A DNA stretch of 64,000 nt from Halocalculus aciditolerans (GTDB lineage Archaea > Halobacteriota > Halobacteria > Halobacteriales > Halobacteriaceae). Each line of letters begins with the position of its first letter. The first letter of the stretch is position 1. Where the stretch lies: contig NZ_BMPG01000002.1 in NCBI RefSeq assembly GCF_014647475.1, positions 806,001 through 870,000 on the forward strand, written 5' to 3'. Of this stretch, positions 7,642 to 11,332 are shown piece by piece. The translations under genes were made by a program, and so were the position numbers. Under the pieces are notes generated by a model. It worked only from the letters and a program-made list of their open reading frames with translations. It searched no databases and had not been told where the DNA came from.

Positions 7642-8955
7642 ATGGATTCGATCGTTCAGGAGGCCATCGACGACGCTGAAGAAACCGACGAGTCCGCCGA
7701 GCAGGGCGGACAGCCCGCTTCCGGCGGGCGGTCCTCCGGCGGGTCGTCCGGCGCGGGCAACGCCTCCGGACGCATGACCGACGAGGAACTGATGGACGTC
7801 CTGGAAGAACTCCAGACGAACATCACCGTCGTCGGTTGTGGCGGCGCGGGCTCCAACACCGTCAACCGCATGTCGAAAGAGGGGATTCACGGCGCGAAAC
7901 TCGTCGCCGCGAACACCGACGTCCAGCACCTCGTCGAGATCGACGCCGACACGAAGATTCTCATGGGCGAGCAGAAGACGAAGGGCCGCGGTGCCGGCAG
8001 CCTCCCGCAGGTCGGCGAGGAAGCCGCGCTCGAATCCCAGGACGAAATCGCGGAATCCATCGAGGGCAGCGACATGGTGTTCGTCACCGCCGGCCTCGGC
8101 GGCGGCACCGGCACCGGCAGCGCCCCCGTCGTCGCGAAAGCCGCCCGCGAAATCGGCGCGCTCACCATCTCCATCGTCACGACCCCCTTCACCGCCGAAG
8201 GCGAAGTCCGACGAACCAACGCCGAAGCCGGCCTCGAACGCCTCCGCGACGTTTCTGATACGGTCATCGTCGTCCCGAACGACCGCCTCCTGGACACGGT
8301 CGGGAAACTCCCCGTCCGACAGGCCTTCAAAGTCTCCGACGAAGTCCTCATGCGCTCCGTGAAAGGCATCACCGAGCTCATCACCAAACCCGGCCTCGTC
8401 AACCTCGACTTCGCCGACGTCCGCACCGTCATGGAGAAAGGCGGCGTCGCCATGATCGGCCTCGGCGAATCCGACAGCCAATCCAAAGCCCAGGACTCCG
8501 TCCAGTCCGCCCTCCGCAGCCCCCTCCTCGACATCGACATCGGCGAAGCCAAATCCGCCCTCGTCAACGTCACCGGCGGCCCCGACATGAGCATCGAGGA
8601 AGCCGAAGGCGTCGTCGAACAGATCTACGACCGCATCGACCCCGACGCCCGCATCATCTGGGGAACCAGCGTCGACGACGACCTCGACGGCACCATGCGC
8701 ACCATGGTCGTCGTCACCGGCGTCGAATCGCCCCAGATCTACGGCCGCAACGACGAAGACGCCGTCCCCAACGACGCCGGCAAAGCCCAACAGCAGGGCG
8801 CACGCGAAATGGGCGGCCAGAGCCAGCAGCGTCAGAACCAGCAGAACACCCAGCAGAATCAGGGCCGCCGCGCCGGCGACCGCCAGACCCAGCAAGCCCA
8901 ACAACGCGACCAGAACGACGACGACGGCCTCGACGACATCGACTACGTCGAATAG
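7642..8955 (+). CDS. ftsZ1: Cell division protein FtsZ1
   Basis: This tubulin-superfamily GTPase polymerises at mid-cell. The N-terminal extension (residues 1-55) is acidic and Gly/Ser-rich. The GTPase core includes [18 protein letters not shown], the tubulin signature GGGTGTG at 153-159 and the T7 synergy loop NLDFADVRT, which activates GTP hydrolysis in the neighbouring subunit. After the core comes a long Gln/Asn/Arg-rich disordered linker and a short tail ([10 protein letters not shown]) that probably recruits partners. The N-terminus MDSIVQEA and location next to secE-nusG identify it as FtsZ1, the paralogue that in Haloferax acts first and scaffolds division and shape proteins. Total length is 437 residues. 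Confidence 0.97.
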
Positions 8956-8958
8956 TAC

Positions 8959-9005
8959 CTTTTACTCTGCGCTCGGCCGCCTTCGGCGGCCTCGCTCGGT
9001 AAAAG
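8959..9005 (+). terminator. Nested stem-loop after ftsZ1, likely terminator and outer part of the left inverted repeat
   Basis: The outer arms CTTTTAC and GTAAAAG enclose a perfect inner hairpin GGCCGCC-TTC-GGCGGCC (8975-8991). It starts 3 bases after the ftsZ1 stop. A similarly built stem-loop lies in mirror position at 10631-10678. Confidence 0.55.
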
Positions 9006-9115
9006 CTACGACAAAAGCCCCGTCACCCCACCCTTGGTGGGGTTCGGGGCCTCGCGCGAAGCGCGAGTGAACCGGCGACCTACCGGGCTCTTCGAGCCGC
9101 TCGGTCGCCGGACGC
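8959..9115 (+). repeat. Left copy of a composite inverted repeat bounding the AT-rich island
   Basis: In order, it holds an outer stem-loop (8959-9005), hairpin ACCCCACC-CTT-GGTGGGGT (9025-9043), hairpin CTCGCGC-GAA-GCGCGAG (9051-9067), and a conserved core (9067-9115) whose ends CCGGCGACC/GGTCGCCGG also pair. The same four elements occur in mirror order at 10501-10678. The core shares two exact blocks of about 20 bases with the right copy. The hairpin stems differ in sequence but keep pairing. The stretch from 9116 to 9275, up to the end of the island gene, shows no gene. Confidence 0.65.
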
Positions 9116-9275
9116 TACCGTAGTGGTCGGTTCGTTTTCCTAGCGCGATTTCAGTCTCTACGCCGCAGGTGTGCCTAAGGGCACAACACCAAAACACCCA
9201 CTACCGCTCCGCGCAGCCCCGCAAAGACCGTGGAGACTTGTTGGGAACCAGTGATTATCGGGCTTCGTCTCCCTG

Positions 9276-10178
9276 TCACCAATCGAAAAAGCTTCTCGTT
9301 CGAGGGTGCTGAAAGTTTCTCGTCAGGTCCAGCTGTGTTTGTTGAAGTTTGAGTGCTGCGCGTGTGACAAACTGTATCCCGAATTTAATCTCATCCTTCT
9401 CAAAGTCATCGTCAGTTTTCCCCATCATTCTCACATCACGCACAATACTGTTGAACCTGGAGTATTGTGTATAATCAATTCCGAGAGAGAGTATCTGAAG
9501 CTCGGAGTAAATATCATCAAATAGTGTTTTAGAGGTGTCTATCCACTCTTGAACATCATCAGAATAACTTCTCTCTGACATAATGTTGCGCCGTTGTGGG
9601 TATGGCGTATATTCCAACTGGCCTCGTCCCCTCTCTTTATACTCATACATTAGATCGTCAAATGCGTCGTCTAATGCTATCGCAGCGTTTCTAGTTTCTC
9701 CATTAGTGAGGTACTCCTTCGCCTCTGAAACTTTCTTTCGTGTAGTGTCGAATTCGACTAAGCTGAATAGGTCAATATCTCCATAGTCGGTTCCAAAGAC
9801 AGTTGGCGTATTCTCTTCAAAGAATCGTTCCACAGTTGCCCGATATACTTCAATATCTTCCTCTGTGGGGCGAATAAGTTGGTGTTTCAAACGATTCCTT
9901 GCATCATGCAAATTCCGCATGGATTCTTTCTGTGTTAGTGTAACATCTTCCATTTCAAGCTTCCACCAATAGTCCATGAAACTGTCCGGATTATCAGCGT
10001 CGACGTACTGTTTAGATATTATCAAGAACATCTCTACAGAATCATGAAATGATAGAAGAGAAGTGGATCGATTCGGAGATGGTTTCCGAGAGAGAGAGAT
10101 TGCATTCTCGTGTAAGTTTTTAATGTAGGCAAGTCGCTCCATCTGAGACTTTCTGATGGTCATAAAGAGTAATCTCAT
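9276..10178 (-). CDS. AT-rich island protein with a HEPN-type RNxxxH motif
   Basis: This 300-residue, mostly alpha-helical protein has no recognised full-length homologue. Residues 94-99 read RNRLKH within NLHDARNRLKHQ. This fits the R-polar-x3-H active site of HEPN ribonucleases, found in many toxins and antiviral effectors. The N-terminal helix with SLLSFHDSVEMFLIIS (about 40-55) resembles the usual HEPN first helices. The remaining 170 residues are charged helices without a clear motif. Base composition is far more AT-rich than any neighbour and codon use is unlike the window, so recent transfer is likely. No antitoxin or nucleotidyltransferase partner is visible. Start is the first ATG at 10178; Met6 or Met13 are alternatives. 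Confidence 0.75.
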   Translation of the reverse strand: MRLLFMTIRKSQMERLAYIKNLHENAISLSRKPSPNRSTSLLSFHDSVEMFLIISKQYVDADNPDSFMDYWWKLEMEDVTLTQKESMRNLHDARNRLKHQLIRPTEEDIEVYRATVERFFEENTPTVFGTDYGDIDLFSLVEFDTTRKKVSEAKEYLTNGETRNAAIALDDAFDDLMYEYKERGRGQLEYTPYPQRRNIMSERSYSDDVQEWIDTSKTLFDDIYSELQILSLGIDYTQYSRFNSIVRDVRMMGKTDDDFEKDEIKFGIQFVTRAALKLQQTQLDLTRNFQHPRTRSFFDW

Positions 10179-10500
10179 GTTTGTGCCAAAGTAGTTAGGG
10201 GTGGATGTGGTTGTCTGTACTGGGGTATTCTCTACTGCATTCGCTCACACCTACCCACGGGGTAGGTCACACTGAAACTCGAATGCCGAGATATACACAC
10301 GAAAAGACGACTCTGGTGTGTACCGCTCAGCGAATTTCCGTGCGTCTCGTCCAGAGTCGCGCGCTGGAGAAACGCTGACGAATGTCGTAAAGGGGGAGAA
10401 GGCACGCCTATAGCCCTCCGGAATTGCCAATTGTCGAGTCGTGTGTACGAGGATGGCGTCGACGTCAACGAATCAGCAACGGACACGTCCAACACGGTGA

Positions 10501-10678
10501 GCGTCCGGCGACCGAGCGGTCCGTCAGGACCCGGTAGGTCGCCGGTTCACCGAGCGCGGAGCGCTCGGGCTCGGCGCGGACCACCGCGCCCCTTCGGGGC
10601 GCGACGGGAGCACCGATGCTTTTAGTGCAGGTTTTGCCGAGCGCTGGCGCGCTTCGCGCGCCGAGCGCAGCGCAAAAC
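10501..10678 (-). repeat. Right copy of the composite inverted repeat bounding the AT-rich island
   Basis: Read on the minus strand, it has the same order as the left copy: stem-loop GTTTTGC..GCAAAAC with inner GGCGCGC-TTC-GCGCGCC (10631-10678), hairpin CGCGCCCC-TTC-GGGGCGCG (10585-10603), hairpin CCGAGCGC-GGA-GCGCTCGG (10550-10568) and the core (10501-10550). The core matches the left core in two arms of about 20 bases and differs only in the central 9-10 bases. Between the island gene and this repeat (10179-10500) I see no convincing gene. Confidence 0.65.
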
Positions 10679-10688
10679 GTGCAGCGCA

Positions 10689-10720: not shown

Positions 10721-10891
10721 ATGGACGTTCCCTTAGAGCTTTCAGCGTATACGCGCGTGCTGAAGCTGGCGAGCACGCCGTCGTGGGAGGAGTTCTCCCA
10801 GATTGCGATGATCGCTGGTGCCGGCATCCTGCTCATCGGACTGCTCGGATTTATCATCTTCGTGGTTATGAACGCGATTCCGGGGGTCTAG
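10721..10891 (+). CDS. secE: Preprotein translocase subunit SecE (Sec61 gamma)
   Basis: This 56-residue protein is a small, single-span subunit of the SecYEG channel that clamps SecY. It starts MDVPLELSAYTRVLKLAST, has an amphipathic helix around residues 5-30 (RVLKLASTPSWEEFSQIA), and then one transmembrane helix rich in Ile, Leu and Gly (about 32-54). This matches archaeal SecE. The next gene, nusG/spt5, begins 3 bases after its stop codon, the classic secE-nusG pair. In other haloarchaea the gene follows ftsZ1 directly; here an island separates them. Confidence 0.92.
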   Translation: MDVPLELSAYTRVLKLASTPSWEEFSQIAMIAGAGILLIGLLGFIIFVVMNAIPGV

Positions 10892-10894
10892 TCG

Positions 10895-11332
10895 ATGGGG
10901 ATTTTCGCTGTGAAGACGACGGCGAGTCAGGAGCAGACGGTCGCGAGTATGATCGCGAACCGCGAGGAGGACGAGATTCACGCGGTGCTCGCGCCGGACG
11001 CGTTGACGAGCTACGTGATGGTTGAGGCGGACAACGACGCGGTGATTTCGCGGGTGCTGGAGGAGATTCCGCACGCGCGGAGTATGGTGCCGGGGAACTC
11101 CTCGATCAGTGAGGTCGAGCACTTCCTGAGCCCGAAGCCGGACGTGGAGGGTATCGCGGAGGGCGACATCGTGGAGCTCATCGCGGGACCGTTCAAGGGC
11201 GAGAAGGCGCAGGTGCAGCGTATCGACGAGGGGAAAGACCAGGTGACGGTCGAACTCTACGAGGCGACGGTGCCGATTCCGGTGACGGTGCGCGGCGACC
11301 AGATTCGCGTGCTGGACTCTGAAGAGCGCTAA
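10895..11332 (+). CDS. spt5: Transcription elongation factor Spt5 (NusG family)
   Basis: Archaeal Spt5 binds the RNA polymerase clamp, with Spt4, and raises processivity. The 145-residue protein has an N-terminal NGN domain ([40 protein letters not shown]) and a C-terminal KOW domain ([19 protein letters not shown]). The length is normal for archaea. It is tightly coupled to secE. The stop codon lies inside a hairpin that probably ends the transcript. Confidence 0.95.

Follow-up and report, generated by a model that had tools for sequence, protein, structure and literature searches.

The two structured arms that lie between ftsZ and secE-nusG in the window, the 64,000-nucleotide stretch of Halocalculus aciditolerans DNA analysed here, appear to be copies of one 3'-end element that occurs throughout the family under selection for its structure and would work as a terminator/insulator or as a protector of RNA 3' ends. 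We hold this reading with somewhat better than even confidence. Each copy comprises four hairpins, A-B-C-D, over about 165 bp, and starts 0-4 nt past a stop codon or immediately after a tRNA gene. The CTTTT(T) tract at its start forms the 5' arm of hairpin A, with core D coming last, followed by a T-enriched tail. An RNA polymerase leaving the gene would meet the T-tract and then the hairpins, transcription would end there or shortly past D, and the hairpins would fix and protect the RNA 3' end. A mirror pair, A-B-C-D, a gap of about 28 bp and D'-C'-B'-A', would shut the intergenic region from both sides as a two-way terminator/insulator.

The left arm occupies positions 8955-9116 on the forward strand and the right arm 10683-10500 on the reverse strand. 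Their RNA folding z-scores are −7.0 and −7.2 respectively, and none of 200 dinucleotide shuffles folds as well. A first-pass annotation of this DNA had described the same four units in mirrored order on both sides; folds of both arms bear this out, and its coordinates were right to within about 5 nt. The ftsZ gene (7642-8955, +; Pfam Tubulin and FtsZ_C) ends in a TAG stop at 8953-8955 that abuts the left arm. Left unit A (8955-9009, +) is a nested stem-loop, assigned from its fold, its basal-stem covariation and the position of its T-tract behind stops. At its base the last nucleotide of the stop codon and the next two are paired (GTA/TAC), and above this lie a C.C mismatch, a CTTTTAC/GTAAAAG stem and an inner GC hairpin. 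A linker (9010-9018, +) ends in AAAAGC, which is invariant in 24 aligned copies of the window's genome. It is followed by the unit B hairpin (9017-9050, +; ACCCCACC/GGTGGGGT within CCCCG/CGGGG, from the fold), the unit C hairpin CTCGCGC-GAA-GCGCGAG (9051-9067, +; fold and alignment) and core D (9065-9116, +), which rests on pair counts and an 80.5-bit match to R1, our covariance model of the core. Core D is laid out as GTGAA, a covarying stem, a conserved 5x4 internal loop, an inner stem and GACGCT.

On the right, all on the reverse strand, core D' (10500-10552) matches R1 at 74.8 bits. The C' hairpin CCGAGCGC-TCC-GCGCTCGG (10551-10569) is complete in the centroid fold, with partly competing pairing in the minimum free energy fold. 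The B' hairpin (10569-10619) folds with CGCGCCCC/GGGGCGCG inside an outer stem, and the nested stem-loop A' (10626-10683; fold and sequence) turns its outer end towards the secE promoter region. About 40 nt past A' starts secE (MDVPLELSAYTRVL...; 10722-10891, +), identified from its sequence and from relatives with the same gene order, followed by nusG/spt5 (10895-11332, +; Pfam Spt5-NGN and KOW), whose product is 97-98% identical to that of Halarchaeum. Comparison with relatives indicates that the ftsZ-secE gene order is ancestral. The D cores of the two sides have in common two arms, annotated as nearly exact, that are 100% complementary and 21 and 20 nt long. Units A, B and C are unlike in sequence on the two sides with pairing kept in both, just as the annotation had said; the unit B stems, for instance, are ACCCCACC/GGTGGGGT on the left and CGCGCCCC/GGGGCGCG on the right.

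Covariation across copies supports selection on structure, which the annotation had read from the paired changes, both in core D and in the basal stem of unit A. The covariance model that it had called for was built for core D, since unit B is too variable in length for a model of the whole composite. In 22 copies of core D, 97.9% of cells are paired, both sides have changed in 57 cells against 17 in shuffles, and the covariation score was reached by none of 500 shuffles. Related copies are not independent in these tests; nonetheless, versions with the partners slid by 1-3 columns fail strongly, with pairing falling to 26-48%. For the unit A basal stem, 86.9% of cells are paired in 117 copies, compared with 56.4% in shuffles (maximum 63.5%), and the basal three pairs covary as CGA/TCG, GCA/TGC, GTA/TAC, CCA/TGG and GGA/TCC. 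The inner parts of unit A are distinct in 115 of the 117 copies. Its loops are mostly CTTCG, CTCCG, CTGCG and CGAAG, so the GAA/TTC triloops that the annotation saw in most hairpins are present, with others among them. Stem changes include G-U pairs, which are compatible with RNA. A palindrome can pair on both strands, so the covariation does not tell RNA and single-stranded DNA apart. Core D also carries an invariant tag, an unpaired GTGAA ahead of an imperfect palindrome, with A(C/T)GC on the 3' side. Five loci (L206, L212, L181, L264 and L179) contain extra nested palindromes (GTGGTTCGAGAGACGCC...GGCGTCTCTCGTCATCACGAGAGAGC...GCTCTCTCGAACGAC) within unit A or B, which look as though they belonged to another family of hairpins that inserts into this one.

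The element is dispersed. A 61-base core sequence was found at 30 places in the window's 3.38-Mb genome, and R1 gave 37 matches there with E of 0.1 or less. The weakest of these may have arisen by chance; the genome holds about 35 copies. When related genomes were searched for the core, as the annotation had suggested, it was present in 23 of 25 other Halobacteriaceae (Halobacterium, Halarchaeum and relatives), at 2-27 copies each, with no R1 match in G014 or in the incomplete G012. Solitary copies form the majority. Among 391 genomes of the class, other families mostly have none or 1-5 copies; the exception is a genus (g41) with 11-13, where the copies read include ones behind the stops of CDC48-like and KaiC-like genes, named by sequence resemblance. 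A CRISPR-like or tandem array is ruled out by this dispersal. In other families, eight single copies (L276, L277, L278 and L280-L284) are immediately preceded by a conserved stretch, about 200 nt long, that ends in GGCCGTTAGTGTTCCGGGCGTACA and is possibly an undescribed RNA gene; the three loci scanned gave no Rfam match. Farther downstream the 3' end of this stretch is found again as CTACTAGTAG...GGTAGTGTTCCGGGCGTA repeats, of which L277 has four, much as integrative elements have attachment sites.

Neighbouring cores within 1.5 kb of each other are convergent in 28 of 28 cases. In about 18 of these mirror pairs the cores are 26-29 bp apart, and a pair meets either stop codons at both its outer ends or a stop codon at one and a promoter at the other (nusA/rps12, ftsZ/secE). 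Nine pairs have wider gaps of 186-1383 bp, with an ORF of at least 60 codons in seven; the GC content of these gaps is 0.43-0.63 against 0.65-0.70 in the flanks, lower in every case, though intergenic DNA of these GC-rich genomes may be AT-richer in general. The window's island is one of the nine. Because the wide gaps enclose AT-richer DNA, the space between mirrored arms seems to be a place where foreign DNA settles. The 1383 bases between the window's arms (9117-10499; GC 0.47 compared with 0.65 in the flanks) are probably foreign DNA with an orphan ORF. This ORF of 300 aa (9276-10178, −) has no homologue among the 25 other Halobacteriaceae genomes; PADLOC and NCBIfam gave no match for it, and in Pfam nothing reached the cut-off. 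Rfam families at gathering score amounted to two tRNAs in the whole window and to a tRNA in the sampled loci of relatives. Two Halarchaeum genomes share AT-rich cargo between mirrored arms behind TBP (L143 1692-2500 and L203 1606-2500), with a 143-aa lipoprotein-like ORF.

The annotation had named mobile-element ends as one reading, beside processed RNA and recombination sites. The arms would then be the ends of one mobile island carrying the 300-aa ORF, as suggested by the mirrored order, the AT-rich orphan cargo and now also by the AT-richer DNA inside the nine wide-gap pairs of this and other genomes. We think this very improbable. At most places the arms are single or have a gap of only 28 bp, and in the window's genome the roughly 35 places are mostly unpaired and at gene 3' ends. 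Orthologous genes of different genera carry copies, and ftsZ does so in Halobacterium and Halospeciosus, where this cargo is missing. The cargo ORF has no match elsewhere in the family and bears no relation to the distribution of the repeats, so specificity to the island is rejected. The annotation had itself held that finding the repeats at many unpaired sites would speak against island ends, and that is what the copy numbers in the window's genome and in most relatives show. What survives of the idea is that neighbouring copies are always mirrored and that wide gaps are AT-richer; pairs with such gaps stand at nine places, the window's among them, but most copies are solitary or closely paired.

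The position of the copies points instead to gene 3' ends, those of dozens of essential genes among them. In 88 of 123 copies with a located unit A, its T-tract lies 1-8 nt behind the stop of a same-strand ORF of at least 70 codons, compared with 4.8% at shifted control places and 6.7% on the opposite strand. These statistics rest on fetched loci in which the higher-scoring copies were sampled, and weak copies may show another proportion. A simple gene caller puts a gene 3' end next to the outer end of 85 of 123 copies, most within 10 nt, and a 5' end next to that of 25, often about 50 nt from the start codon; where it places a copy inside a gene, the gene call itself is apparently wrong in most cases. 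The copies show the fixed orientation and the fixed distance to gene 3' ends that a terminator or 3'-end signal would have. Past core D the T content climbs to 35-39% at +8 to +15, and in one orthologous pair (L259/L268, from G004 and G010) the element lies directly behind tRNA-Ser. At TBP all four Halarchaeum have the element, and G007 and G001 have A-C-D-like variants of it. Halobacterium lacks it there, and a further reading frame seems to start right after TBP; in Halarchaeum the element seems to sit where the transcription unit ends.

Four observations speak for termination or for the formation of 3' ends: the T-tract that follows the gene, the raised T content past D, the copy at the tRNA and the contrast at TBP. 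Arms that face promoters suggest insulation in both directions. Archaeal intrinsic termination is held to need no hairpins, and four in a row look excessive, while the T-tracts of unit A are only 4-6 long. In Haloferax volcanii T-stretches terminate, and a tested hairpin, although less efficient, terminated 59% of transcripts (PMC7237163). The 3'-end reading also has to accommodate right arms that face promoters and are 3' to no gene, for which the extra assumption of insulation is needed, about 28% of copies with a located A that are not directly behind a stop codon, and a spread to dozens of loci that requires some copying process.

The same positions could serve a purely post-transcriptional 3'-UTR element, whose hairpins would block 3'-5' exonucleases or bind a protein and stabilise core-gene mRNA, with termination occurring elsewhere. 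Its location in the presumptive 3' UTR, the RNA-compatible covariation including G-U pairs and host genes such as ftsZ, nusA, aRF1 and TBP would all suit this account. It is improbable, however, in that there is no mRNA to shield at a mirrored arm antisense to a promoter, as at secE here and at rps12 in Halobacterium, and contact with the stop codon puts unit A under the terminating ribosome.

Comparison of orthologous loci shows that the element is held at ftsZ, nusA, aRF1 and TBP across genera, and that orthologous sites without it exist. At nusA it was found in about nine Halobacterium genomes, the window's genome and G011, and was missing from G007 and G001. At ftsZ the element or clear variants of it occur in the window's genome, G006, G010, G016-G019, G021, G023 and G024, with none in G001, G002, G007, G008, G011 and G014, among others. 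At aRF1 it is carried by about twelve genomes of three genera. The genome without R1 matches, G014, has decayed remnants of A and A' at nusA-rps12 (L234), and its ftsZ-secE sequence is identical to an H. salinarum record (L071); to judge by these sequences, Halobacterium salinarum keeps decayed remnants only. Behind aRF1, G010 has a collapsed copy (L345) in which the 5' arm of A runs straight into the end of D, as a deletion between short GCTCGCG repeats could have left it. A different hairpin, GGTCCAGCTTTTTGGCGGGCC-GTC-AGGCCCGCGAAAAAGGTGGG, stands twice in a row behind nusA in genus g3 (L241, L242), with a T-tract on the gene side.

G004 and G010 align through the flanks at about ten loci, with the element in both. 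For seven of these pairs, taken from two species, the units were parsed; identity is 85-97% in the coding flanks, 58-85% in A-B-C and 74-98% in D, and folding is retained on both sides. One exact D core is common to two G004 loci and a non-orthologous G010 locus. The faster change of the stems together with this shared core suggests exchange between copies or fast compensatory change, and we infer stem exchange between copies as a mechanism.

A REP/BIME-like or PATE/SMR-like non-autonomous palindrome, jumping next to gene ends by means of some transposase, would account for the dispersed copies, for copy numbers that range from 0 to about 35 between related genomes and for single copies in another recurrent context in other families. 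Mirror pairs would then be dimers, as their constant 26-29 bp gap allows, and pairing would reflect recognition as single-stranded DNA. The invariant unpaired GTGAA ahead of an imperfect palindrome also fits this account, and REP, BIME, PATE and SMR elements offer precedents (PMC3733652, PMC3119063). We nevertheless regard it as rather unlikely. Orientation and stop-codon distance are far stricter than in ordinary insertion, positions are common to genera and species, and an unsystematic look revealed no target duplication; at empty orthologous loci the intergenic sequence is too diverged to define one, while inverted ends are present at filled sites. Carriage does not track Y1 transposase (PF01797), which was not found in the window's genome (about 35 copies), G013 (26 copies), G007, G016, G019, G020, G022, G024 or G025, all of them carriers. 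A RAYT-driven REP is rejected on the same count in the window's genome. A REP-like mobile origin may lie in the history of the element; dependence on a resident RAYT/Y1 transposase is excluded.

Beyond the 3'-end reading, we put forward, as a doubtful proposal, a new archaeal class of gene-end module: a stop-codon-anchored multi-hairpin terminator/insulator whose stems would move between copies like cassettes, each locus keeping its architecture. A trans-acting factor would have been lost in H. salinarum, with the copies decaying, and the centre of a pair would be a landing site for foreign genes. Haloarchaeal transcript ends are only partly understood, T-tracts accounting for many sites and structure for few, and an element at the stop codons of ftsZ, nusA, TBP and aRF1 offers a concrete, testable 3'-end signal. 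With its remnants, H. salinarum is a natural knock-out for a factor search by gene-content comparison. Stems at 58-85% identity inside flanks at 85-97% offer a way to study the replacement of paired sequence without loss of pairing, and if the element insulates, it would be a useful part for halophile genetics.

The open-access papers searched on haloarchaeal REP/BIME/MITE-like elements at gene ends yielded no description of this element. Close likenesses include REP/BIME and the CGTC-/GTAG-tagged bacterial palindromes, which are also dispersed, extragenic, often behind genes and arranged as mirror dimers with short linkers, their stems varying with pairing kept (PMC3733652). The inverted dimers with a short constant linker (18 pairs) are shared, but the GTAG or CGTC tag is absent beside the core, where GTGAA stands instead. 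Moreover, REP/BIME are bacterial single hairpins of 20-40 bp, whereas the present element is an archaeal four-hairpin composite that starts at the stop codon, holds orthologous positions across genera and occurs in genomes that can be without RAYT/Y1 transposases. The PATEs and SMRs of Haloquadratum are likewise haloarchaeal, transposase-free, palindrome-bearing repeats; PATEs derive from IS605-type elements and have near-terminal palindromes, and SMR-A elements target PATEs and IS605-type elements (PMC3119063). The present element differs in its place at core-gene ends and in carriers that can be without Y1 transposases. The T-tract terminators and hairpin-associated 3' ends of H. volcanii resemble it in having a T-tract just behind the gene and a hairpin near the RNA 3' end (PMC7237163). 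Those signals are single motifs, whereas here several hairpins make up a conserved composite whose stems covary and whose copies pair in mirror image. In bacteria, the bidirectional terminators that lie between convergent genes have the polarity A-stem-T; the element would likewise serve two converging units, with the polarity T-stem-A, which would suit archaeal T-tract termination. It resembles both REP/BIME repeats and terminators, falls outside REP, and may represent a new class of gene-end module.
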